NCBI GenBank assembly: GCA_013214065.1
Contig: JABSPK010000005.1
Span: 186,001-250,000 of the forward strand
From: Flavobacteriaceae bacterium
GTDB lineage: Bacteria > Bacteroidota > Bacteroidia > Flavobacteriales > Flavobacteriaceae
Direction of reading: 5' to 3'
Length of the DNA: 64,000 nucleotides
Positions 41,992-53,074 of the stretch are shown piece after piece; within the stretch, counting starts at the first letter, position 1, and every line of letters begins with the position of its first letter. The position numbers and the translations under genes are program-made. Under the pieces are notes generated by a model. It did not search any database. It saw only the letters and a list, made by a program, of their open reading frames with translations, and had not been told where the DNA came from.

Positions 41992-43272
41992 TTAATAAAG
42001 CTGTGCCATTTTGGCCTTGATTTCCTCCAAGCACAAATTCCCGATACTTCCTTCATGGGTATGTTGGCTGTCTTTTTTCGGACGGAAATTCCCGTTCTCA
42101 ATGGCCTTGCCCATGGTCTTATAGGCATCCCTAAAGGGCATGCCGTTCTTCACCATTTCGTTCAAAGTGTCGACACTGAACAAATAATCGTACTTCGGGT
42201 CTTTTAGGATCTCGGGGTTCACTTTGATTTCTTTCAAACTGAACACCAACATTTCAAGGCAGGCCTTGATATCCTGAACGGCGACGATGATGCCTTCTTT
42301 GACCATTTGCATGTCACGGTGGTACCCGCTTGGTAGGTTGTTGGTTAACAAGGCCAGTTCGTTGGGTAGGGCCTGGATCTTGTTGCATTTCGCGCGGATG
42401 AGCTCAAAAACGTCAGGATTCTTTTTGTGCGGCATGATACTACTACCGGTGGTCAGCTCGTTGGGGAACGAAATGAAATCGAAATTTTGACTCATGTAAA
42501 GGGTGATGTCCATGGCCATTTTTGATAGGGTAGCAGCAATGCTCGACAGACCGAAGGCAGCGGACTTTTCAACTTTTCCCCTACCCATTTGGGCCGCTAC
42601 CACATTGTATTTCAAGGTCTCGAAACCCATGGCTTCGGTGGTCATCTTTCGATCGATCGGAAATGAGGAGCCATAACCCGCGGCACTTCCCAAGGGGTTT
42701 TGGTCCGTTACTTTTTGCGCGGCCTTGAGCAGGTATAGATCATCGATCAGACTTTCGGCATAGGCCGAGAACCACAGCCCGAAAGAAGATGGCATGGCGA
42801 TCTGTAAATGGGTGTAGCCCGGCAACAACACTTTTTGGTGTTTTTTAGCCAGTTTCAACAACAAGCCGAAGAGGGTATGAACCGAGTCACCGATCTCGCT
42901 TAGTTCGGCTTTTAAATAAAGTTGCATGGCCACCAAAACCTGATCGTTGCGGGATCTCGCGGTATGGATCTTCTTGCCGGCATCCCCTAACTTTTTGGTC
43001 AGTAGGTATTCGATTTTGGAATGCATGTCCTCAAAATCGGCCTCGATGGTAAATTCGCCTTTCTCAATGCTTTTGGCGATCAGATCCAATTCCTTGACCA
43101 GTGCTACGGCTTCATCGGAGTCGATAAGGCCGACGGCTCCAAGCATTTGGGCATGTGCTTTTGATGCAATGACATCGTATTTGGCAAGTACGAGATCGAG
43201 TTGACGGTCATTGCCGACCGTAAAATGATCGATTTTTTTATCCGTACTAAATCCTTTATCCCAGAGTTTCAT
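41992..43272 (-). CDS. argH: Argininosuccinate lyase
   Basis: A 426-residue member of the fumarase/aspartase superfamily, last step of arginine synthesis (argininosuccinate to arginine and fumarate). It is recognised by the signature loop GSSIMPHKKNPDVFE, which carries the catalytic Ser, by HTARSRNDQVLVAMQLYL and by LPGYTHLQIAMPSSFGLWF. The length is slightly short for the family (usually about 460). It follows the NAD(P)-binding gene by 25 bp. Confidence 0.96.
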   Translation of the reverse strand: MKLWDKGFSTDKKIDHFTVGNDRQLDLVLAKYDVIASKAHAQMLGAVGLIDSDEAVALVKELDLIAKSIEKGEFTIEADFEDMHSKIEYLLTKKLGDAGKKIHTARSRNDQVLVAMQLYLKAELSEIGDSVHTLFGLLLKLAKKHQKVLLPGYTHLQIAMPSSFGLWFSAYAESLIDDLYLLKAAQKVTDQNPLGSAAGYGSSFPIDRKMTTEAMGFETLKYNVVAAQMGRGKVEKSAAFGLSSIAATLSKMAMDITLYMSQNFDFISFPNELTTGSSIMPHKKNPDVFELIRAKCNKIQALPNELALLTNNLPSGYHRDMQMVKEGIIVAVQDIKACLEMLVFSLKEIKVNPEILKDPKYDYLFSVDTLNEMVKNGMPFRDAYKTMGKAIENGNFRPKKDSQHTHEGSIGNLCLEEIKAKMAQLY

Positions 43273-43297: not shown

Positions 43298-43954
43298 TTA
43301 TTTTTTTGAAATCACCACTTTTTTGTGGATCAATGCTTCATTTTCGATACAGCTTACCAAGTACTTCGCTAGAGTGGCCCTACTTATGGTCAGTTGTGGT
43401 TTTGGTGTGTTGGCAAAGGACTCTTGCACCAGTTGCAATGCGGGGCTATTGGTCAGTCCTACGGGGCGCACGATCGTCCAAGCTGCGGCTGAGTTCTCGA
43501 GGATTGTCTCTTGGCGTTCATGGTCGGCGTAGGCCGGCCCGATGTTACTCTTATCGATCAACAAGCGAAACCAAAAAGGAAGGTCTTTTTTCGTTTCATG
43601 AACCCCCCAGGCCGAACAGCTAATGATACGTTCAGTACCGGAATCGCTTGCGATGCGGGTCACCCTATGCATCGCATCGGAAATCAGGTTTTCAGGCGCC
43701 CGCAAGGGAGCCCAAGGGAAATCATTCGTACGCGATACATTCAAGATGTTGATCAGGGCGCTACAGCCCTCCATCAGTTTTTCCAAGGTGTTGCTATCGT
43801 TGGGAACACCTTCGACAAGCGTCAATCCCTTTGTCGGAACAAGTTGTGATCGGTCGCGCACCAAACAGTTGACTTCATACCCTTTTTCGAGGGCGATATC
43901 AACCACCAGTTTACCCGTTCTCCCCGTACCGCCTAAAACCGCAATTTTCATCAT
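43298..43954 (-). CDS. NAD(P)-binding Rossmann-fold protein (atypical SDR, NmrA/SDR_a5-like)
   Basis: A 218-residue atypical short-chain dehydrogenase. The dinucleotide motif AVLGGTGRTGKLVVDIALEK is at the N-terminus, followed by NCLVRDRSQL at the end of the second strand. It lacks a classical YxxxK catalytic pair in the expected place, as is usual for NAD(P)H-sensing NmrA-like members. It separates argE from argH: 68 bp after argE and 25 bp before argH. No arginine enzyme of this kind is known, so it is either an insertion into the operon or a redox-sensing accessory. Confidence 0.85.
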   Translation of the reverse strand: MMKIAVLGGTGRTGKLVVDIALEKGYEVNCLVRDRSQLVPTKGLTLVEGVPNDSNTLEKLMEGCSALINILNVSRTNDFPWAPLRAPENLISDAMHRVTRIASDSGTERIISCSAWGVHETKKDLPFWFRLLIDKSNIGPAYADHERQETILENSAAAWTIVRPVGLTNSPALQLVQESFANTPKPQLTISRATLAKYLVSCIENEALIHKKVVISKK

Positions 43955-44022: not shown

Positions 44023-45096
44023 TCAACGGGTCAAAAACGGTTCAAGCATATCGATATAGATGCCAACGGCCTCTTTCACTTCGTCAACGAAAATGAACTC
44101 ATTGGCCGAATGTGATCTTGGGCTATGACCCGGTCCCATTTTCAATGATTGACAACTTAATTCCGCTTGGTCCGATAGGGTAGGCGATCCGTAGGTTTCC
44201 CTACCCAGGGCGATTCCCGATTGTACCAATGGATGTTCTTTGGCAATGGAAGAACTACCTAAGTTGAGTGAACGTGGTCGTAATTCGCAGGGGGCCTCTT
44301 CTTGTAAGATCGCATTGATCTCTTCATTCGAATAGCAATCGTTCACCCGGGTATCGATAACCAAATCAACATGGGCCGGTACTACATTGTGTTGACTGCC
44401 GGCACTGATTTGGGTTACGGTCATCTTCACTGGTCCCAATACTTCGGATACTTTTTCAAAACGATAATTTTTGAACCATTCCAAGACCTCAATGGTGTTG
44501 TAAATGGAATTGTTGTCGTTGGGATGGGCGGCATGTGACGGAGTACCCGATATCTTTCCTTCAAACACGACCAATCCTTTTTCGGCAATGGCCAATTGCA
44601 TTTGCGTCGGTTCGCCGACGATGGCCACATCGATTTCGGGTAGGATGGGCAACAAGGCCGATATGCTTTTGTCACCGGCGTCCTCTTCTTCGGCCGTGGC
44701 ACTCATGATGATGTTGTAGTTCAAGTCGTCCCGGTCGTAAAAATGGACGAAAGTGGCCAATAAGGAACAGAGGGCCCCTCCGGCATCGTTACTACCCAAA
44801 CCATACAACTTCCCATCTTCGATATGGGGATGGAACGGGTCTTTGGTATACCCCGAATTCGGCTTGACGGTATCGTGATGGGAGTTCAACAACAGGTTCG
44901 GTTTGTTTTCATCATAATGCTTGTTGAAGGCATAAATGTTATTGTATTGCCTTTTCGTAACCACGCCATACCCCTTTAACCAGGCATCGATGGCCGCCGC
45001 TGTTTCGTCTTCTTCCTCAGAAAAGGAAGGTATTGCGATCAACTGCTGTAATAATTGCAAGGCCGCTTCGGCCAAGTGCTTTCTATCCGTTGTCAT
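44023..45096 (-). CDS. argE: M20 family N-acyl-ornithine/N-acyl-citrulline deacylase (ArgE-like)
   Basis: A 357-residue zinc metallohydrolase of the M20 family. The metal and catalytic residues can be seen in LLNSHHDTVKP (His and Asp), GSNDAGGALCSL (bridging Asp), SATAEEEDAG (catalytic Glu and metal Glu) and GPGHSPRSHSANEF near the C-terminus. It should release the acyl group (acetyl or succinyl) from the ornithine or citrulline intermediate. In the Bacteroidota pathway with N-succinylornithine transcarbamylase the natural substrate is the acylcitrulline. It overlaps argB by 4 bp. Confidence 0.9.
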   Translation of the reverse strand: MTTDRKHLAEAALQLLQQLIAIPSFSEEEDETAAAIDAWLKGYGVVTKRQYNNIYAFNKHYDENKPNLLLNSHHDTVKPNSGYTKDPFHPHIEDGKLYGLGSNDAGGALCSLLATFVHFYDRDDLNYNIIMSATAEEEDAGDKSISALLPILPEIDVAIVGEPTQMQLAIAEKGLVVFEGKISGTPSHAAHPNDNNSIYNTIEVLEWFKNYRFEKVSEVLGPVKMTVTQISAGSQHNVVPAHVDLVIDTRVNDCYSNEEINAILQEEAPCELRPRSLNLGSSSIAKEHPLVQSGIALGRETYGSPTLSDQAELSCQSLKMGPGHSPRSHSANEFIFVDEVKEAVGIYIDMLEPFLTR

Positions 45097-45872
45097 AGTA
45101 CGAGACTTGTATAACTAGTATGTTCGTTTTTAAAAAGGCCCAGGTTTCCGATCCGCACTTCCGAGACCCCCCGATGCAAGGCTTGGAAACAGTTATGGAG
45201 CTTGGGTAACATCCCATCGGCAAAGATACCTGCTGCTTTCAGGCTTTCATAAGAATCCGAATCGATTTTCGGTATGACCGAATCGGGATCTTCCATGCTG
45301 CGCAACACCCCGTTCCATTCAAAACAGTAGTTCAATACCACATCGAAGTATTCACTAAGACTGATGGCGAGTTCGGCAGCGATGGTATCGGCATTGGTGT
45401 TGAGCAATTGGCCTTGTCCGTCATGGGTCAAGGCACAGAACACCGGAGTGAGTCCGGCTGTCAATATGGTGTTGAGCATCGGGGCGTTGACCCTGTTTAC
45501 ATCACCAGCGAAACCGTAATCCACCTCCTTCACCGGCCGTTTGTGGGCCATAATACTGTTGGCATCGGCCCCGCTCATTCCCAAGGCATTAACCCCTAAC
45601 GCCTGTAGTTTGGCGACTAGGTTTTTATTGACCAATCCGCCATAAACCATGGTGACTACCTCCAAGGTGGGGGCATCGGTCACCCTTCTTCCTTGGGTCA
45701 TTACCGGGGTGATGTCCAATTGTTCCAAAACGGAGGAAGCCTTTTTACCCCCTCCATGAACGATGATCTTCGGCCCATGAAGTGCGGCGATCCCTTTCAG
45801 AAATGGCATGAGCTGCCCTTCGTTTTCGATAAGGTTGCCCCCGATTTTTAAGATGTTGAGTCGTGGTTTCAT
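45093..45872 (-). CDS. argB: N-acetylglutamate (N-acylglutamate) kinase
   Basis: A 259-residue amino acid kinase, second step of arginine synthesis. The N-terminus LNILKIGGNLIENEG and IIVHGGGKKASSVLE form the phosphate-binding region; TQGRRVTDAPTLEVVTMVYG and the GMSGADANSI loop contact the acyl-glutamate. The short length, without an N-terminal arginine-sensing helix, suggests that it is not inhibited through the hexameric arginine mechanism. It overlaps argE by 4 bp and follows argF' by 4 bp. Confidence 0.94.
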   Translation of the reverse strand: MKPRLNILKIGGNLIENEGQLMPFLKGIAALHGPKIIVHGGGKKASSVLEQLDITPVMTQGRRVTDAPTLEVVTMVYGGLVNKNLVAKLQALGVNALGMSGADANSIMAHKRPVKEVDYGFAGDVNRVNAPMLNTILTAGLTPVFCALTHDGQGQLLNTNADTIAAELAISLSEYFDVVLNYCFEWNGVLRSMEDPDSVIPKIDSDSYESLKAAGIFADGMLPKLHNCFQALHRGVSEVRIGNLGLFKNEHTSYTSLVL

Positions 45873-45876
45873 CGTG

Positions 45877-46812
45877 TCAGTGTTCCAATAACCGTTTCAA
45901 AACGTATTGTGCCGCATAGGTCCTATTATTGGCTTGTTCAATGACCAAGCTTTGAGGCCCGTCCAACACCGCATCTTCGACGACAACGTTACGTCGCACA
46001 GGCAGACAGTGCATGAATTGCGCCTCTCCCAGATTTTTTTGGGTCATCATCCACTTTGGGTCTTGTGACAGCACCTTTCCATAGTCGGTGTACGAGCTCC
46101 AATTTTTGACGTAAACAAAATTCGCATTTTCCAGGGCTTTTTCCTGCTCGTAAACGATTTTGCACCCTTTTGTGATTTTTGGATCCAACTCATATCCTTT
46201 TGGGTGGGTAATTATGAATTCCGCCTGTTGTGATTGCATCATGGTGACAAAGGAATTCGCCACGGCATGGGGCAATGCCCTTGGGTGCGGGGCCCAAGAG
46301 AGGACCACTTTCGGTCGGGTGTTTTGTTGGTGTTCGGCCATGGTTATGGCATCGGCCAAGGCCTGTAGTGGGTGGGCTATCGAACTTTCCATATTTACGA
46401 TCGGCACCTTGGCATGGGCTTTAAATCCATTCAAGACCATTTCTGCCTCATCGCTTGCTTTGTCGACCAAACCGGCGAAGGCCCTTATGGCGATGATATC
46501 GGCGTATTGCGATACCACTTGTGCGGCTTCTTTGATGTGTTCGGCCTTACCACCGTCCATGATGGTTCCGTCTTCATATTCCAGTTGCCAACCTTCGCTT
46601 CCAAAATTCATGATCATCACCTGTAGTCCCAATTGCTGGGCCGCTTTTTGGGTGCTTAAACGTGTTCGGAGGCTGTTGTTGAAGAACAAGAGACAGATGG
46701 TTTTCCCGCTTCCCAATGCCTGATGGGACATTGGGTCTTTTTTAAGGGCGATCGCTTCTGAAACAGCCTGTTTCAAGTCACCCAAATCGTAAATCGAAAG
46801 GTAGTGTTTCAT
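45877..46812 (-). CDS. argF': N-acyl-L-ornithine carbamoyltransferase, Bacteroidota (succinylornithine) type
   Basis: A 311-residue transcarbamylase of the variant group that uses N-succinyl- or N-acetyl-ornithine instead of ornithine. The carbamoyl-phosphate motif reads FFNNSLRTRLST instead of FxxxSTRTR, and the WAPHPRALPHAVANSF and HCLPVRRN segments match the N-succinylornithine transcarbamylase described from Bacteroides fragilis. Residue 90, reported as Pro in the succinyl enzyme and Glu in the acetyl enzyme (position from memory), is Ala here (MDGGKAEHIKEA). Substrate preference is therefore not certain. It overlaps argD by 4 bp. Confidence 0.9.
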   Translation of the reverse strand: MKHYLSIYDLGDLKQAVSEAIALKKDPMSHQALGSGKTICLLFFNNSLRTRLSTQKAAQQLGLQVMIMNFGSEGWQLEYEDGTIMDGGKAEHIKEAAQVVSQYADIIAIRAFAGLVDKASDEAEMVLNGFKAHAKVPIVNMESSIAHPLQALADAITMAEHQQNTRPKVVLSWAPHPRALPHAVANSFVTMMQSQQAEFIITHPKGYELDPKITKGCKIVYEQEKALENANFVYVKNWSSYTDYGKVLSQDPKWMMTQKNLGEAQFMHCLPVRRNVVVEDAVLDGPQSLVIEQANNRTYAAQYVLKRLLEH

Positions 46813-47936
46813 GATAAGGTATTTTTCAGTCCATTGAAAAAGGTATCGATTTCGGTTTCGGTGATGTTCAAGGCAGGTAAGAACCGTAGTAATTTTTTAT
46901 TCGCCGATCCCCCGGTGAACATCCGTTGTTTATGGATGAGCGCCTTTCGCAGCTCGGCCACCTCGAAATCGAATTCCAATCCCAACATCAAGCCGCGTCC
47001 TTTGACTTTGGTCACTTCCGGTATTTCTTGGGCCTTCGCTATAAAATAAGTACCCATCTTAGCGGCCTGAGCAACCAGTCCCTCTTCTTGAATTACCTCG
47101 AGAACGGCTAGGGTCGCGGCGCAAGCCAAATGATTGCCTCCGAAAGTGGTACCCAAGAGCCCGTAAGAAGCCTTCAAGGAATTATGTATGAGCACTCCCC
47201 CGACCGGGAAGCCGTTGCCCATACCCTTGGCTATCGAAATGATGCCCGGCTCGACCCCATGATGTTGAAACGCGAAAAAACGACCGCTTCTTCCAAAGCC
47301 CGATTGTACTTCATCAGCGATCAAGACCACTTGATGTCGCTGGCACTGTTCGGCAACATAGGCATAAAATTCCGTGGTGGGTTCGTCCAAACCGCCGACC
47401 CCTTGAATGGCTTCGAGAATGACCGCACAATGTTCGTTTTTCGCAATACATCGTTCAAATGAGGCAAAATCGTTCAATGGCAAGAAATCTACTTGTTGTT
47501 GTTGGTTCAAGGGAGCATTGATCCTCGGATTATCGGTAGTTGCAACCGCTGCCGATGTACGCCCGTGAAAGCTGTTATAAAAAGCGATAACCTTGGCTTT
47601 GCCGGTATGGAAAGAAGCCAGTTTTAAGGCATTTTCATTCGCCTCGGCCCCAGAATTGCATAAAAACAGTTGGTAGTCTTCGCATCCGGAAGCCGCACCG
47701 AGGACTTCGCCCAATTGTTGCTGTAAAGGATTTTGTACCGAGTTGCTGTAGAAACCGATCCGGTCCAATTGGTCTTTGAGTCGTTTTACGTAATGCGGAT
47801 GTCCATGTCCGATTGAGATCACGGCATGCCCACCATAAAAATCGAGGTAGTCATTGCCCTGGTCATCGGTGACGGTCATCCCTTTTGCGGTGACCGGGGT
47901 AACATCATAAAGTGGATATACATCGAAGAGTTTCAT
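46809..47936 (-). CDS. argD: Acetylornithine/succinylornithine aminotransferase
   Basis: A 375-residue class III PLP aminotransferase. It has LDFYGGHAVISIGHGHPHYV at the N-terminus, FLCNSGAEANENALKLA for phosphate binding, FHGRTSAAVA, the cofactor Asp in LIADEVQSGFGRSG and the Schiff-base Lys in SIAKGMGNGFPVGG. It converts N-acylglutamate semialdehyde to N-acylornithine. It overlaps proC by 1 bp and argF' by 4 bp, in an evidently coupled operon. Confidence 0.94.
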   Translation of the reverse strand: MKLFDVYPLYDVTPVTAKGMTVTDDQGNDYLDFYGGHAVISIGHGHPHYVKRLKDQLDRIGFYSNSVQNPLQQQLGEVLGAASGCEDYQLFLCNSGAEANENALKLASFHTGKAKVIAFYNSFHGRTSAAVATTDNPRINAPLNQQQQVDFLPLNDFASFERCIAKNEHCAVILEAIQGVGGLDEPTTEFYAYVAEQCQRHQVVLIADEVQSGFGRSGRFFAFQHHGVEPGIISIAKGMGNGFPVGGVLIHNSLKASYGLLGTTFGGNHLACAATLAVLEVIQEEGLVAQAAKMGTYFIAKAQEIPEVTKVKGRGLMLGLEFDFEVAELRKALIHKQRMFTGGSANKKLLRFLPALNITETEIDTFFNGLKNTLS

Positions 47937-48733
47937 CAGGCGTCTTTTTTGATGTCGTTGATTTTTTTGAAAGAGGTCACGATACCTTGAATAAGGGAAG
48001 AGCTCAACCCTTGGTGCTCCATTTCGTTCAAGCCTTCAATGGTACATCCCTTCGGTGTGGTCACACGATCGATTTCCTCTTCGGGATGGCTCCCTGATTC
48101 GATCAAAAGGCTTGCCGCACCATTGCAGGTGTGCATGGCCAATTCTTGGGCTTCTTTGGCATCGAAGCCGAGTTGGATGGCGCCTTGGGTCGTGGCACGG
48201 ATGAGGCGCATCCAAAAAGCTACGCCACTGGCACAGATGACCGTGGCGGCCTGCATCTGCTCTTCCGGTATTTCAAGCGAATGCCCCATTCGGTTGAAAA
48301 TGGCCTTGGCCAGATCAATGCGCTTGGCTCCAAGAACGTTCGCGCAGATACAGGTCATGCTCTTACCCACCGAGATCGCAGTGTTCGGCATGCTTCTGAT
48401 GACATAATTATCGGCCCCGATGATCGCCTCGATTTTGGCGATGCTAAAACCGGTAATCGTACTGATGACCACATGTTTTTCGGTCAATAGGTCTTTGATA
48501 TCATACAAAATGGCTTCGAAATGACCCGGTTGCACGGCGAATATCAAAATGTCCGATTCCGAAACGGCCGCTCTGTTATCGGCGGTAACCGTGACATTGC
48601 CGTATTTTTCAAAATGGGCGATTTGTTTTGTATTCCGTTTGGTCAGGTACATGCTGGTCGCCCCATTGCTATGCAATATTCCTTTAGCAATACTAAGGCC
48701 CAGATTTCCCGCTCCGATGATGGCTACTTTCAT
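47936..48733 (-). CDS. proC: Pyrroline-5-carboxylate reductase
   Basis: A 265-residue NAD(P)H-dependent reductase, last step of proline synthesis. The Rossmann motif VAIIGAGNLGLSIAKGIL is at the N-terminus; VIRSMPNTAISVGKSMT and GVAFWMRLIRATTQGAIQLG in the dimer domain are diagnostic, with DRVTTPKGCTIEGL at the C-terminus. Its position between argC and argD is a known flavobacterial arrangement and ties proline to arginine and ornithine synthesis. It lies 10 bp after argC. Confidence 0.94.
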   Translation of the reverse strand: MKVAIIGAGNLGLSIAKGILHSNGATSMYLTKRNTKQIAHFEKYGNVTVTADNRAAVSESDILIFAVQPGHFEAILYDIKDLLTEKHVVISTITGFSIAKIEAIIGADNYVIRSMPNTAISVGKSMTCICANVLGAKRIDLAKAIFNRMGHSLEIPEEQMQAATVICASGVAFWMRLIRATTQGAIQLGFDAKEAQELAMHTCNGAASLLIESGSHPEEEIDRVTTPKGCTIEGLNEMEHQGLSSSLIQGIVTSFKKINDIKKDA

Positions 48734-48743
48734 AAGTTCTTTT

Positions 48744-49718
48744 TTAAAAAACGCCTGCTTTTAGTTGAAGGCCCAAGGTTTCCTCAAGGCCGAAAATCAA
48801 ATTCATATTCTGTACGGCCTGACCTGAAGCCCCTTTTAAGAGGTTGTCGATGGCCGAGGTGACCAAGAGCAGTTCTTCATGCTGGTGGATATGAATATGG
48901 CACTGGTTGGTATTGACCACTTGCTTCAGGTGAATGGGTTCTTCACTTACATGGGTGAACGCGGCATGGCCATAAAACGTTCTGTAGAGGTCGCGCACTG
49001 TTTCGATGGTGCCATTAAAATGGGTATAGGCCGTTGCTAAAATACCTCGGGTAAAATTGCCTCGATTCGGAAGGAACAGGAGTTTCCCTATGGGGTTGCC
49101 AAAGGATTCCAAACTTTCCCCGATTTCCCCTAAATGTTGATGGGTGAAGGGCTTGTACCAGCTTATGTTGTTGTTGCGCCAACTAAAATGCCCCGTTGCA
49201 CTCGGGCTAATACCCGCCCCGGTGCTGCCCGTCGTGGCGTTGACGTGTACTTCGTTTTGTAGCAGTCCCGCTTCGGCCAATGGTAACAAGGCCAATTCGA
49301 TGGCCGTCGCAAAACAACCGGGATTGGCAATGGTGTCTGCACTTTCGATTCGGTTCCGGTTCAATTCGGGCAAGCCGTATACGAATTCACGGTCCTTCCA
49401 TGTCGCATCACCTGCCAATCTAAAATCGTTGCTCAGGTCGATGATTTTTGTGGATGTGGAAAATGCGTGTTCATTTAGGAATTTGGTCGAATTACCATGG
49501 CCCAAACACAAGAAAACCACGTCTACGGAAGTATTGACCGTATCTGAAAATTCCAATACCGTTTGGCCCAATAGATCAGGGTGTGCACTGGTTAGGGGTT
49601 TTCCTGCCTTGGTGGTACTAAATACGAAGTCGATGGTGAGCGCCGGATGCTGAAGCAACAACCGGATGAGTTCGCCCCCGGTATACCCTGATCCCCCTAT
49701 GATGCCTGCTTTAATCAT
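48744..49718 (-). CDS. argC: N-acetyl-gamma-glutamyl-phosphate reductase
   Basis: A 324-residue semialdehyde dehydrogenase-type enzyme, third step of arginine synthesis. The N-terminus AGIIGGSGYTGGELIRLLLQ is the NADP site with the ArgC-specific SGYTG, and ANPGCFATAIELALLPL holds the catalytic Cys. The middle contains NATTGSTGAGISPSATGHFS and the conserved HQHLGEI. It overlaps argG by 8 bp. Confidence 0.95.
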   Translation of the reverse strand: MIKAGIIGGSGYTGGELIRLLLQHPALTIDFVFSTTKAGKPLTSAHPDLLGQTVLEFSDTVNTSVDVVFLCLGHGNSTKFLNEHAFSTSTKIIDLSNDFRLAGDATWKDREFVYGLPELNRNRIESADTIANPGCFATAIELALLPLAEAGLLQNEVHVNATTGSTGAGISPSATGHFSWRNNNISWYKPFTHQHLGEIGESLESFGNPIGKLLFLPNRGNFTRGILATAYTHFNGTIETVRDLYRTFYGHAAFTHVSEEPIHLKQVVNTNQCHIHIHQHEELLLVTSAIDNLLKGASGQAVQNMNLIFGLEETLGLQLKAGVF

Positions 49719-50901
49719 GGTCTTGGTTTACATGGTTCGCGATTTTCCCTGAATTGGATAAGATCTTGATAAAGCCTTTGGCATCATCGGCAGACCATCC
49801 TTTGTTCATCTCCCCGTAACTGCCGAACGAAGCGTTCATTAAATCGTGGGGAGAGGCGATACCGTTGAGGTCGAATCGGTAAGGGTGCAAGGTCACGAAA
49901 ACATCACCGCTCACGTTCCGTTGCGTATCCGACAAAAAGGCCTCGATATTCCGCATCACCTCATCGAGATAGTTGCCTTCATGCAGGAGCATCCCATAAA
50001 AGTTCGCCAATTGTTCTTTTTGGTATTGCTGCCATTTGCTCAGCGTGTGTTTTTCCAAAAGATGGTGCGCTTTCAATATGATCAAAGGTGCCGCCGCTTC
50101 GAAACCGACACGTCCTTTGATACCGATGATGGTGTCCCCAACATGGATATCCCTTCCAATAGCGTATTTAGAGGCTATCGCTTGTAGCTTTTCGATGTTG
50201 GTGACCGCCTTGTCGGCGATACCGTCCAATGCAACCAGCTCCCCTTTTTCGAAGGTCAACTTGACTTCTTTCGGCAGTTTGTTTTCAAGCTGACTGGGGT
50301 AAGCCGATTCGGGAAGTGGAAGGTGGGAAGTCAGCGTCTCGTCTCCGCCTACCGAAGTACCCCATAACCCCCGGTTGATCGAGTACTTCGCTTTCTCCCA
50401 TGGATAGTCGATACCCTCGGCTTGGAGGTACGCTATTTCCGCTTCGCGTGAGAGTTTATGGTCACGGATCGGGGTGATGATCTCGATTTCCGGGGCCAAG
50501 GTCTGGAAGATCATATCGAACCGCACTTGATCGTTTCCGGCTCCGGTGCTTCCGTGGGCAATGTACTGGGCTCCGATTTTTTTGGCATGGGTTACGATTT
50601 CTACCGCCTGCACGATCCGTTCGGCGCTGACTGAAAGGGGGTAGCTGTTATTTCGGAGCACATTACCGAAGATGAGGTATTTGACTACTTTGTCATAAAA
50701 GGATTGCACGGCGTCCAAAGAGGTATAGCTGCTGGCCCCTAAGGTCAAGGCTTTTTCTTTGATGGCTTCGATTTCCGCAGCGGAGAATCCGCCGGTATTC
50801 ACGCTTACCGCGTGTACCTCGTAGCCTTTCTCCTGCGAAAGGTATTTGGCGCAATAGGAGGTGTCAAGTCCACCACTATAGGCTAGAACCAGTTTTTTCA
50901 T
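49711..50901 (-). CDS. argG: Argininosuccinate synthase
   Basis: A 396-residue ATP-dependent ligase that joins citrulline and aspartate. The pyrophosphatase loop LAYSGGLDTSYCAKYL is at the N-terminus; IAHGSTGAGNDQVRFD and WEKAKYSINRGLWGTSVGG further identify it. It is the second gene of the operon, overlapping the GNAT gene by 26 bp and argC by 8 bp, so all these genes are translated from one message. Confidence 0.96.
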   Translation of the reverse strand: MKKLVLAYSGGLDTSYCAKYLSQEKGYEVHAVSVNTGGFSAAEIEAIKEKALTLGASSYTSLDAVQSFYDKVVKYLIFGNVLRNNSYPLSVSAERIVQAVEIVTHAKKIGAQYIAHGSTGAGNDQVRFDMIFQTLAPEIEIITPIRDHKLSREAEIAYLQAEGIDYPWEKAKYSINRGLWGTSVGGDETLTSHLPLPESAYPSQLENKLPKEVKLTFEKGELVALDGIADKAVTNIEKLQAIASKYAIGRDIHVGDTIIGIKGRVGFEAAAPLIILKAHHLLEKHTLSKWQQYQKEQLANFYGMLLHEGNYLDEVMRNIEAFLSDTQRNVSGDVFVTLHPYRFDLNGIASPHDLMNASFGSYGEMNKGWSADDAKGFIKILSNSGKIANHVNQDHD

Positions 50902-51508
50902 TGGTTTTTTTCTTTAAGAATAATTGTTCTTTAATGCTTTTCAGGCGCTTGAAGGCCTTGTTATTGAGTTTCTTAGGTTGCTCTTCGGTAGCGGGATCAT
51001 ATAGCATCCCGGTACACAGGCACATTTTTCGTTCCGTCCGGGTGAGGATGTCGAAGTTTTTGCAGGTCTGGCAGCCTTTCCAAAAATCGGGATCGTCGGT
51101 CAATTCGGAAAAAGTCACGGGCCGATAGCCAAGGCCGTAATTCATCTTCATAACGGCCAAGCCCGTAGTGATCCCAAATATTTTAGCGTCTGGGAATTTT
51201 TCTCGAGACAGTTCGAAAATCCGTTTTTTGATCTGCTTGGCCAAACCCAAACCTCGGTAGTCTGGGTGCACGATAAGGCCTGAATTGGCTACGAAGTCCT
51301 TTTGACCCCAGACCTCGATGTAACAAAAGCCGGCGAATTTCTCACCATCAAGCGCGATGATGGCATTGCCGTTCTGTAAACGTTGTACGATATACTCCGG
51401 CGTACGTTGTGCGATACCGGTACCCCTGACCTTGGCCGAATCGGTAATGGTATCACTGATGACCTGGGCGTACTTATAATGTGATTCGTTAGCAACAAGT
51501 ATTTGCAT
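50876..51508 (-). CDS. GNAT family N-acyltransferase, candidate N-acylglutamate synthase
   Basis: A 210-residue GNAT protein, first gene of the arginine operon. The acyl-CoA site is V80-HPDYRGLGLAKQI (R85-G88), followed by GITTGLAVMKMNYGLGYRPV. After the GNAT core come four Cys, C146, C149 (CQTC) and C163, C165 (CLC), which could hold a zinc ion; the last 40 residues are very basic. The operon has no other argA or argJ, so this is the best candidate for making N-acetyl- or N-succinylglutamate. That assignment is inference from context; the family and the Cys are seen directly. Confidence 0.85.
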   Translation of the reverse strand: MQILVANESHYKYAQVISDTITDSAKVRGTGIAQRTPEYIVQRLQNGNAIIALDGEKFAGFCYIEVWGQKDFVANSGLIVHPDYRGLGLAKQIKKRIFELSREKFPDAKIFGITTGLAVMKMNYGLGYRPVTFSELTDDPDFWKGCQTCKNFDILTRTERKMCLCTGMLYDPATEEQPKKLNNKAFKRLKSIKEQLFLKKKTNEKTGSSL

Positions 51509-51721: not shown

Positions 51722-53074
51722 TTACTTTTTACGAATCAGGCCTAAATTGTTATGATTTTTGTGGATTTCATAACTCAAATACCCAAATACGGCAAGATAT
51801 TCAAGCCCCAATAGCCAGAGGTTTTCCTTGAAATCAGTTTGCGAATAGGCGTAATAGCTCAACATTACGGTAGCTGTCCACACCATAACGACCCGATATT
51901 TGGTGAACAGACCCAAAAACAACAAGAACACCAAGTACCACGGGTGAACGGTTGAGGAAAGGGCATAGTAAAGCCCTAAAATGAGGAACATTGATCCGAA
52001 AATCGCTTTTAGGTCACGGTGGGGTTTGAAAAATGTGAGCAACGCCACGACCAAAGGGATGTAAAGTTTGAGTAAAAAACCATATTCTTTGATTAATACC
52101 CAAGGTTTGACCTCATAGCGTATCAGGGCGATTTTTTTGACCAGATTATAAATACCCGCGTTGAATTCGAAATTGGAAAACCACAGGCCTATGGTCTGCC
52201 CATAGTGCTCGGCCAGGCTAGGACTATAGAAAGGAAGCACCATAACCGAACCACCAATACCTACCATGGTATAAAACGCCATGCTTTTCTTAAATCCGAG
52301 ATAGGGGAGAAAGAGCGGTAAGAACAAGATCGGGACCAGTTTCAGAAAGATGGAGGCCGCATATACGGGCCCGGCAAACCAAAGTTTTCCTTTAGCGACG
52401 AGATACATGGCCCAAACAAAGAAAAATAGCATTACCCCTTCAAAATGGAGATTGCCCGTCAACTCAATGACCACCAGCGGGTTAAGGAAATACCAAAAAA
52501 CCATCCCTTCGTCCATTTCAAGATGGGCTAGCAATTTCTTCCCGAACAATACGATGCCAAGATCTGCCAAAATAATGCAGATGCGCATCCATACCACTCC
52601 CGCCAGGGTAGAACCCATGCCCAAGAAAGCGCTCAAGGCGAAGAGCAGTTGGTTCATCGGAGGGTAGTTGCTGTAGTGCCGTGCACTCAAGGCACCCATA
52701 CCTTGATGGAGTTCATTCGCGTTGGGTAGGCTGAAATTCGGATCGACCAACAATTCATCGGGAGTAAACGAATAGGGGTTCATGCCTTGGGCGATGAGTT
52801 CACCATCCCATAGAAACCGGTAAAAATCTTGTGAAAGGTTGGGTTCGGTCCAGAGAAAAACCAGTCGAATCAGTACCCCTGCAACCAACAGGAATTTGAA
52901 ATTCCAAGCCTGTAACCGGACCAGTTTGATATAAAGGAAAAAGAGGGCGCCGTAGAGCGAAATCAGTTTTGGGAAGTCCTCACGCTGTAAATCAAATGCG
53001 AAAACCCCATAGAACACCAAACTCCCCAAAAACAATAGGATGGGGATTCTGTGCAGTTTCCAGTATGCGAACAT
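51722..53074 (-). CDS. GT-C fold membrane glycosyltransferase (MptB/PIG-M/GT87-like)
   Basis: A 450-residue protein with about ten to twelve TM helices. The first large loop carries SQDFYRFLWDGELIAQGMNP (D83 as the likely catalytic acid), the pattern of polyprenyl-phosphate-mannose-dependent GT-C mannosyltransferases. It would transfer a sugar from a prenyl-phosphate donor on the outer face of the inner membrane. It lies 6 bp after the CslA-like gene and closes the six-gene unit. A DPM1-like synthase two genes upstream could provide the donor. The sugar is not proven. Confidence 0.8.
   Translation of the reverse strand: MFAYWKLHRIPILLFLGSLVFYGVFAFDLQREDFPKLISLYGALFFLYIKLVRLQAWNFKFLLVAGVLIRLVFLWTEPNLSQDFYRFLWDGELIAQGMNPYSFTPDELLVDPNFSLPNANELHQGMGALSARHYSNYPPMNQLLFALSAFLGMGSTLAGVVWMRICIILADLGIVLFGKKLLAHLEMDEGMVFWYFLNPLVVIELTGNLHFEGVMLFFFVWAMYLVAKGKLWFAGPVYAASIFLKLVPILFLPLFLPYLGFKKSMAFYTMVGIGGSVMVLPFYSPSLAEHYGQTIGLWFSNFEFNAGIYNLVKKIALIRYEVKPWVLIKEYGFLLKLYIPLVVALLTFFKPHRDLKAIFGSMFLILGLYYALSSTVHPWYLVFLLFLGLFTKYRVVMVWTATVMLSYYAYSQTDFKENLWLLGLEYLAVFGYLSYEIHKNHNNLGLIRKK

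Follow-up and report, generated by a model that had tools for sequence, protein, structure and literature searches.

Organization of the arginine locus

The window analysed here, a stretch of 64,000 nucleotides from a member of the Flavobacteriaceae, carries on its minus strand a run of genes for arginine synthesis that starts with a small acyltransferase of the GNAT type. In the order in which they are read the genes are:

50876..51508, minus strand: GNAT, 210 aa, ATG start; proposed glutamate N-acyltransferase of the ArgA2/BT3761 type with the four cysteines (Cys4) C146, C149, C163 and C165
49711..50901, minus strand: argG, argininosuccinate synthase; argininosuccinate synthase models rank first in NCBIfam (TIGR00032, 262.2 bits, below the cut-off of 268.2)
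48744..49718, minus strand: argC, N-acyl-gamma-glutamyl-phosphate reductase (TIGR01850, 310.6 bits, cut-off 233.6)
47936..48733, minus strand: proC, pyrroline-5-carboxylate reductase (TIGR00112, 220.7 bits, cut-off 196.75)
46809..47936, minus strand: argD-type aminotransferase (TIGR00707, 356.4 bits, below the cut-off of 410.05)
45877..46812, minus strand: N-acylornithine carbamoyltransferase of the succinylornithine type with Ala90 (PDB 1js1 from B. fragilis, E 1.5e-100)
45093..45872, minus strand: argB, N-acylglutamate kinase (TIGR00761, 176.5 bits, cut-off 151.3)
44023..45096, minus strand: M20 deacylase of the ArgE/DapE type (Peptidase_M20 over cut-off; TIGR01910, 121 bits, below the cut-off of 217.6)
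43298..43954, minus strand: NAD(P)H-binding protein (NAD_binding_10, 118 bits, cut-off 27.2)
41992..43272, minus strand: argH, argininosuccinate lyase (TIGR00838, 334.6 bits, cut-off 279.5)

The GNAT matches the Pfam models Acetyltransf_1 (29.9 bits, cut-off 20.7) and Acetyltransf_7 (27.6 bits, cut-off 27). Among the matches listed, its closest named relatives come from Allomuricauda, Croceivirga, Zobellia and Kriegella, with 81-86% identity. Since argG is located on the strand of the GNAT gene, the two reading frames overlap by 26 bp (50876-50901) at the 3' end of the GNAT gene, so that the ORF coordinates bear out the overlap described in the earlier note. The same note had placed the GNAT at the head of an arginine operon, and this fits the situation upstream, where the reading of the next gene on the same strand (51722..53074) ends at a distance of 213 bp. 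With argC, proC, argD, the carbamoyltransferase, argB, the deacylase and argH following downstream, the operon headed by the GNAT contains a candidate for each later step from glutamate to arginine. The M20 deacylase (44023..45096) is the probable N-acylcitrulline deacylase.

A gene on the plus strand at 50876-51508 was ruled out by the many stops in the plus-strand reading. No promoter-like site was detected on the minus strand between 51400 and 51800 (one site on the plus strand, 0.8 expected), the promoter and terminator scan gave no signal above chance, and a search of the whole window with Rfam at gathering thresholds gave no match. The NAD(P)H-binding protein, encoded at 43298-43954 between the deacylase and argH, has no known role in arginine synthesis. 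The position of proC also varies: in the window operon argC comes before it and argD after it, and in the Bacteroides-type operons of L211 and L212 it follows argD. The presence of proC in arginine operons ties proline to arginine synthesis.

Search for other enzymes forming acylglutamate in the source genome

The source genome has a size of 3.48 Mb in 24 contigs and is 99.3% complete. As the earlier reading of the GNAT as the missing synthase depended on a separate argA or argJ not being present elsewhere, the genome was searched for both. ArgJ (PF01960) was not detected at E values up to 10, with ten of the 14 control genomes positive. The model for the long form of ArgA, TIGR01890, gave nothing over its cut-off of 202.85 bits, the best match being argB with 46.6 bits; one of the 14 control genomes exceeded the cut-off, and the test covers the long form of ArgA and would miss a short-form NAGS. 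With no match to TIGR01890 at E values up to 1, the GNAT of 210 aa does not itself classify as a classical ArgA. The five proteins matching this model at E values up to 10 were rejected as a long-form ArgA encoded elsewhere in the genome, as they are argB and four GNATs. The NCBIfam matches of these four GNATs were all below threshold; RimI ranked first in three of them and the fourth had none. A second copy of the GNAT from the arginine operon was not found in the genome at E values up to 0.001. Within these limits the searches did not refute the earlier reading.

Structure prediction

Foldseek searches of the PDB with the first AlphaFold model of the GNAT returned 2r8v (NAGS of N. gonorrhoeae) and 5yo2 (Rv2747), followed by the unassigned GNAT PA2271, and the second model returned 5yo2, 2r8v and 5yge (ArgA with glutamate). 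Using VIA-align, the first model was superimposed on 2r8v with Z 17.5 (rmsd 2.7, 150 aligned) and on 5yge with Z 16.8 (rmsd 2.4, 139 aligned); N-terminal acetyltransferases come next from Z 16.4, and rows up to 1 apart count as tied. Scores in this comparison are high for GNATs in general, with 956 of 1000 chains at a Z of at least 8. Because the closest rows are tied and high scores extend across the superfamily, the predicted fold points to an NAGS but falls short of proof.

Distribution in Bacteroidota and proposed function

Sampling the phylum with 148 genomes revealed the GNAT in 61 and ArgJ in 63, and not a single genome contained both, compared with 26 expected if the two were independent. 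Much of this exclusion goes along with lineage; in family f21 the GNAT was found in 15 genomes and ArgJ in two (G108 and G119). An N-acylornithine-type carbamoyltransferase accompanies the GNAT in 61 of 61 genomes. A similar analysis of 346 genomes of the class revealed a carbamoyltransferase of the B. fragilis type in 124 (E up to 1e-60), the GNAT in 127 (E up to 1e-30) and both together in 123; the two genome lists were matched by eye, and genomes without a match were counted from the tallies. G251 contains the carbamoyltransferase without the GNAT, and G203, G367, G402 and G427 contain the GNAT without a match to the B. fragilis-type carbamoyltransferase.

The pairing with argG was analyzed in the blastp matches of at least 100 bits. 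These amount to 171 rows, 30 of which repeat the sample of 148 genomes, leaving 141 non-redundant sources. In 135 of the 141, argG lies no more than 400 bp downstream of the GNAT and shares its strand. The six exceptions comprise two loci at contig ends (L051, L061), two with argG at a distance of 0.6-0.7 kb (L065, L094), and G030 and G135, in which the GNAT lies outside the arginine operon. The GNATs of these last two genomes (L145 8468-9085 and L147 8751-9359) occur together with acetylornithine-type carbamoyltransferases in both genomes. In G023 the GNAT and ArgG form a natural fusion in one open frame (L141 6860-8749, equal to L027; 588 aa from the chosen Met).

The genome of the window encodes 22 GNATs over the Pfam cut-off, including the one from the arginine operon, and the substrates of GNATs are unpredictable from sequence. 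The GNAT could therefore acylate another target, e.g. a protein, and regulate the pathway, with another GNAT of the genome acting as the true synthase. The near-universal pairing with argG and the exclusion with ArgJ argue against such a role, as do the mutant fitness data for BT3761 given in part of PMC7311316, and we consider it very improbable.

In our view the GNAT is very probably the first enzyme of arginine synthesis and acylates L-glutamate, most likely with succinyl. The role as N-acylglutamate synthase is well supported by the operon context, by the absence of both ArgJ and a long-form ArgA over cut-off, by the exclusion with ArgJ, by the fold and by the matching Bacteroides-like operon. 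With an acyl-CoA as donor, the alpha-amino group of L-glutamate would receive the acyl group, for which succinyl is the likeliest candidate. As in known NAGS, the reaction presumably proceeds by direct attack within the cleft of the GNAT, and the four cysteines may hold a structural metal. ArgB, ArgC, ArgD, the succinylornithine-type carbamoyltransferase, the M20 deacylase, ArgG and ArgH of the operon would then complete the route. The function given in the earlier note, N-acylglutamate synthase and probably a succinylating one, is thus upheld by context, ArgJ exclusion, fold and the B. fragilis-like operon, whereas its novelty is not.

Diverged second copies of the GNAT were identified in four of the 346 class genomes (L256 6662-7207, L257 6579-7199, L258 6266-6829 and L259 6760-7380). 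They are 46-52% identical and keep the four cysteines. A gene for an ArgE-like deacylase adjoins three of the four, and no match to other arginine genes of the window was found within their stretches. Such a diverged GNAT and the ArgE-like deacylase are possibly an acylation and deacylation pair of another pathway.

Succinyl or acetyl as acyl group

The nature of the acyl group was approached through position 90 of the carbamoyltransferase. According to the sections of PMC7311316 on this enzyme, a residue change at this position switches the acyl specificity, and S, P, A or V are linked to a preference for succinyl; the structures PDB 2g7m and 2fg6 differ at the same position. Judged by this residue, Ala90 of the carbamoyltransferase in the operon favours succinyl-CoA as the donor. 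Across the 61 GNAT genomes, window included, position 90 is occupied by A (22 genomes), V (18), S (12), T (seven), I (one) or Q (one), i.e. S, A or V in 52 and T, I or Q in nine. Of 80 named loci (the best 80 of at least 593, nearly all of them Flavobacteriaceae by title), 71 have the carbamoyltransferase gene within reach, with S (43) or A (28) at this position. Glu at position 90 was found in none of the 61 GNAT genomes, hence there is no donor contrast among them. Ala90 is a weak pointer to the donor because Ala is also present in all 12 genomes with an acetylornithine-type carbamoyltransferase and no GNAT.

The same step with acetyl-CoA would make the GNAT an N-acetylglutamate synthase and the intermediates of the pathway acetylated. 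This reading agrees with the nearest solved folds, which are N-acetylglutamate synthases, and with the name N-acetylglutamate synthase that part of PMC5317091 gives, on unpublished data, to the family member of Caldithrix; residue 90, moreover, fails to separate the GNAT genomes from others. Against it stands the operon carbamoyltransferase, which is of the B. fragilis succinylornithine kind and has with Ala90 one of the residues associated with succinyl, and we regard acetyl-CoA as the unlikely donor. Among the open-licence PMC papers searched, no acyl donor assay for this GNAT family was found.

A conserved set of four cysteines

The GNAT has cysteines at positions 62, 146, 149, 163 and 165. 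The last four had been pointed out before as a possible zinc site and their positions were confirmed, C62 being additional. Every one of the 171 aligned rows, comprising 142 distinct sequences and 141 sources, has C at these four positions, so that the set is not due to chance. The four are also kept without exception in a second set of 19 rows, which adds 13 further genomes of the class (five rows repeat a genome), and in all four diverged paralogues, as read from the sequences. C62 is likewise invariant in the 171 rows, and in the 19 rows this position is C in eight, S in seven and T in four. A CxxC and a CxC motif with fixed spacing are typical of structural zinc. The conservation suggests a putative structural metal site, and a metal site in the GNAT is plausible.

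The two AlphaFold models share the GNAT core and diverge at residues 146-165. The first shows a helix at 152-157 and the second a hairpin (152-155/160-163) at low confidence, with a mean pLDDT of 56-69 per ten-residue block in this region. The first prediction gave one good model of five with a mean pLDDT of 86.5, the others ranging from 82.5 to 68.8. Alignment A4 comprised 59 of the 68 listed diverse named relatives. The disagreement of the models and the low pLDDT of the second would be compatible with a redox or disulfide site, or with a contribution to substrate binding, instead of a structural metal. The fixed spacing of CxxC and CxC in every row examined is what structural zinc typically looks like and speaks against these alternatives, which appear somewhat unlikely to us. 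A search of open-licence PMC papers found no report on the role of the four cysteines or on metal binding in this GNAT family, and no zinc-bearing GNAT was recognised among the Foldseek and VIA-align titles, which carries no weight as evidence. A four-cysteine site that is kept without exception in the rows examined is a loose end worth having.

A P-loop protein in arginine operons of other Bacteroidota

A distant, acetylornithine-type carbamoyltransferase (164-225 bits) was present in 14 of the 148 phylum genomes, 12 of which have neither the GNAT nor ArgJ. An unannotated P-loop protein with a length of about 350 aa came to light on inspection of the stretch that separates argG from argC in the operons of such genomes. 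At more than 490 bits it occurs in 13 of the 148 genomes, namely these 12 and G030, which carries both the GNAT and the P-loop protein; five further genomes of the sample gave weak matches of 64-80 bits. In family f27 the GNAT is found in G135 and the P-loop protein in G085. The class of G003 contains the P-loop protein in 45 of 146 genomes. Among the best 30 of these 45 genomes, 29 loci have the gene flanked by argG and argC, all on one strand; the remaining locus, L241, stops before argC would come into view. Coordinates of the gene are L184 11089-12183, L186 11408-12487 and L190 10797-11840; it is also present in L146, L189 and L226-L255.

No Pfam or NCBIfam model matched the P-loop protein over cut-off. 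DUF1611, a P-loop domain, gave a match below threshold, and a comparison with the PDB revealed nothing convincing (best E 0.055). One DUF1611 protein, DgcN, has D-glutamate N-acetyltransferase activity. A link of DgcN or DUF1611 to arginine synthesis was not found in open-licence PMC papers.

The swap of P-loop protein and GNAT in the same pathway suggests that the former is another N-acylglutamate synthase, i.e. a candidate of non-GNAT type that would replace the GNAT. It is possible, and we propose this tentatively, that in Bacteroidota arginine synthesis is started by three or more unrelated proteins that can stand in for one another: ArgJ, the GNAT with four cysteines and probably zinc, and the P-loop protein. 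If so, the P-loop protein, the other loose end of this analysis, would represent a novel class of glutamate N-acyltransferase outside the GNATs, and the several non-orthologous solutions known for this step would gain a further one.

Comparison with known systems

The earlier note had stated that the acyltransferase of the succinylated route was not clearly established. This is out of date, as PMC5317091, PMC7311316 and PMC9026213 assign it; the note described the state of knowledge of a 2015 review, in which glutamate succinylation still had no gene assigned to it (PMC4490483). According to the sections of PMC7311316 (2020) on B. thetaiotaomicron, this organism has no candidate for ArgA or ArgJ, genetic and mutant fitness data place BT3761 in arginine synthesis, and BT3761 is proposed as probably the N-succinylglutamate synthase; for Echinicola vietnamensis and a Pedobacter, similar behaviour is described for most candidate genes. 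The family was named ArgA2 in 2022 with the same proposed function, N-succinylglutamate synthase, and is described in part of PMC9026213 as present in all 194 Bacteroidetes genomes of the set without ArgA. The label 'BT3761' in a figure legend of PMC9765024 refers to another protein family and was set aside.

The window GNAT belongs to this BT3761 (ArgA2) family of Bacteroidetes; as the family already has an assignment, the finding lacks novelty. It adds a flavobacterium with a compact operon to the Bacteroidetes in which the enzyme was assigned before, and little changes thereby. BT3761 (Q8A1A5) is, as far as described in these sources, a GNAT encoded with arginine genes like that of the window. 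We infer the orthology of the two through G208 and G175 and not from the BT3761 sequence itself. The carbamoyltransferases of these genomes are 92% and 91% identical to 1js1 of B. fragilis, their operons have the order GNAT-argG-argC-argD-proC, and their GNATs are 60.3% and 56.5% identical to the window GNAT over the aligned part. In contrast to the Bacteroides type, the window operon has proC between argC and argD and includes the carbamoyltransferase and the deacylase.

Cabys_1732 of Caldithrix abyssi is the first gene of the arginine locus argAGCBEH, like the GNAT of the window, and part of PMC5317091 (2017) calls it an N-acetylglutamate synthase on unpublished results and reports its family as limited to Bacteroidetes and C. 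abyssi. BT3761 is given as over 50% identical to it in a section of PMC7311316. Cabys_1732, likened to the window GNAT by description, is assigned to acetyl and not to succinyl.

The NAT domain of ArgA/NAGS (2r8v) and Rv2747 (5yo2, 5yge) are the top PDB matches of both GNAT models. They share 14-15% identity with the GNAT, which does not have the amino-acid kinase domain of 2r8v, and they were missed by sequence, as phmmer against the PDB and a profile search put PA4794 first. The H-NAGS of Moritella, described in part of PMC4490483, joins a glutamate acyltransferase to the late arginine enzyme ArgH. The fusion protein of G023 differs from it in having ArgG instead of ArgH as partner, with the GNAT at the N-terminus, whereas in the window the GNAT gene overlaps argG without fusion.
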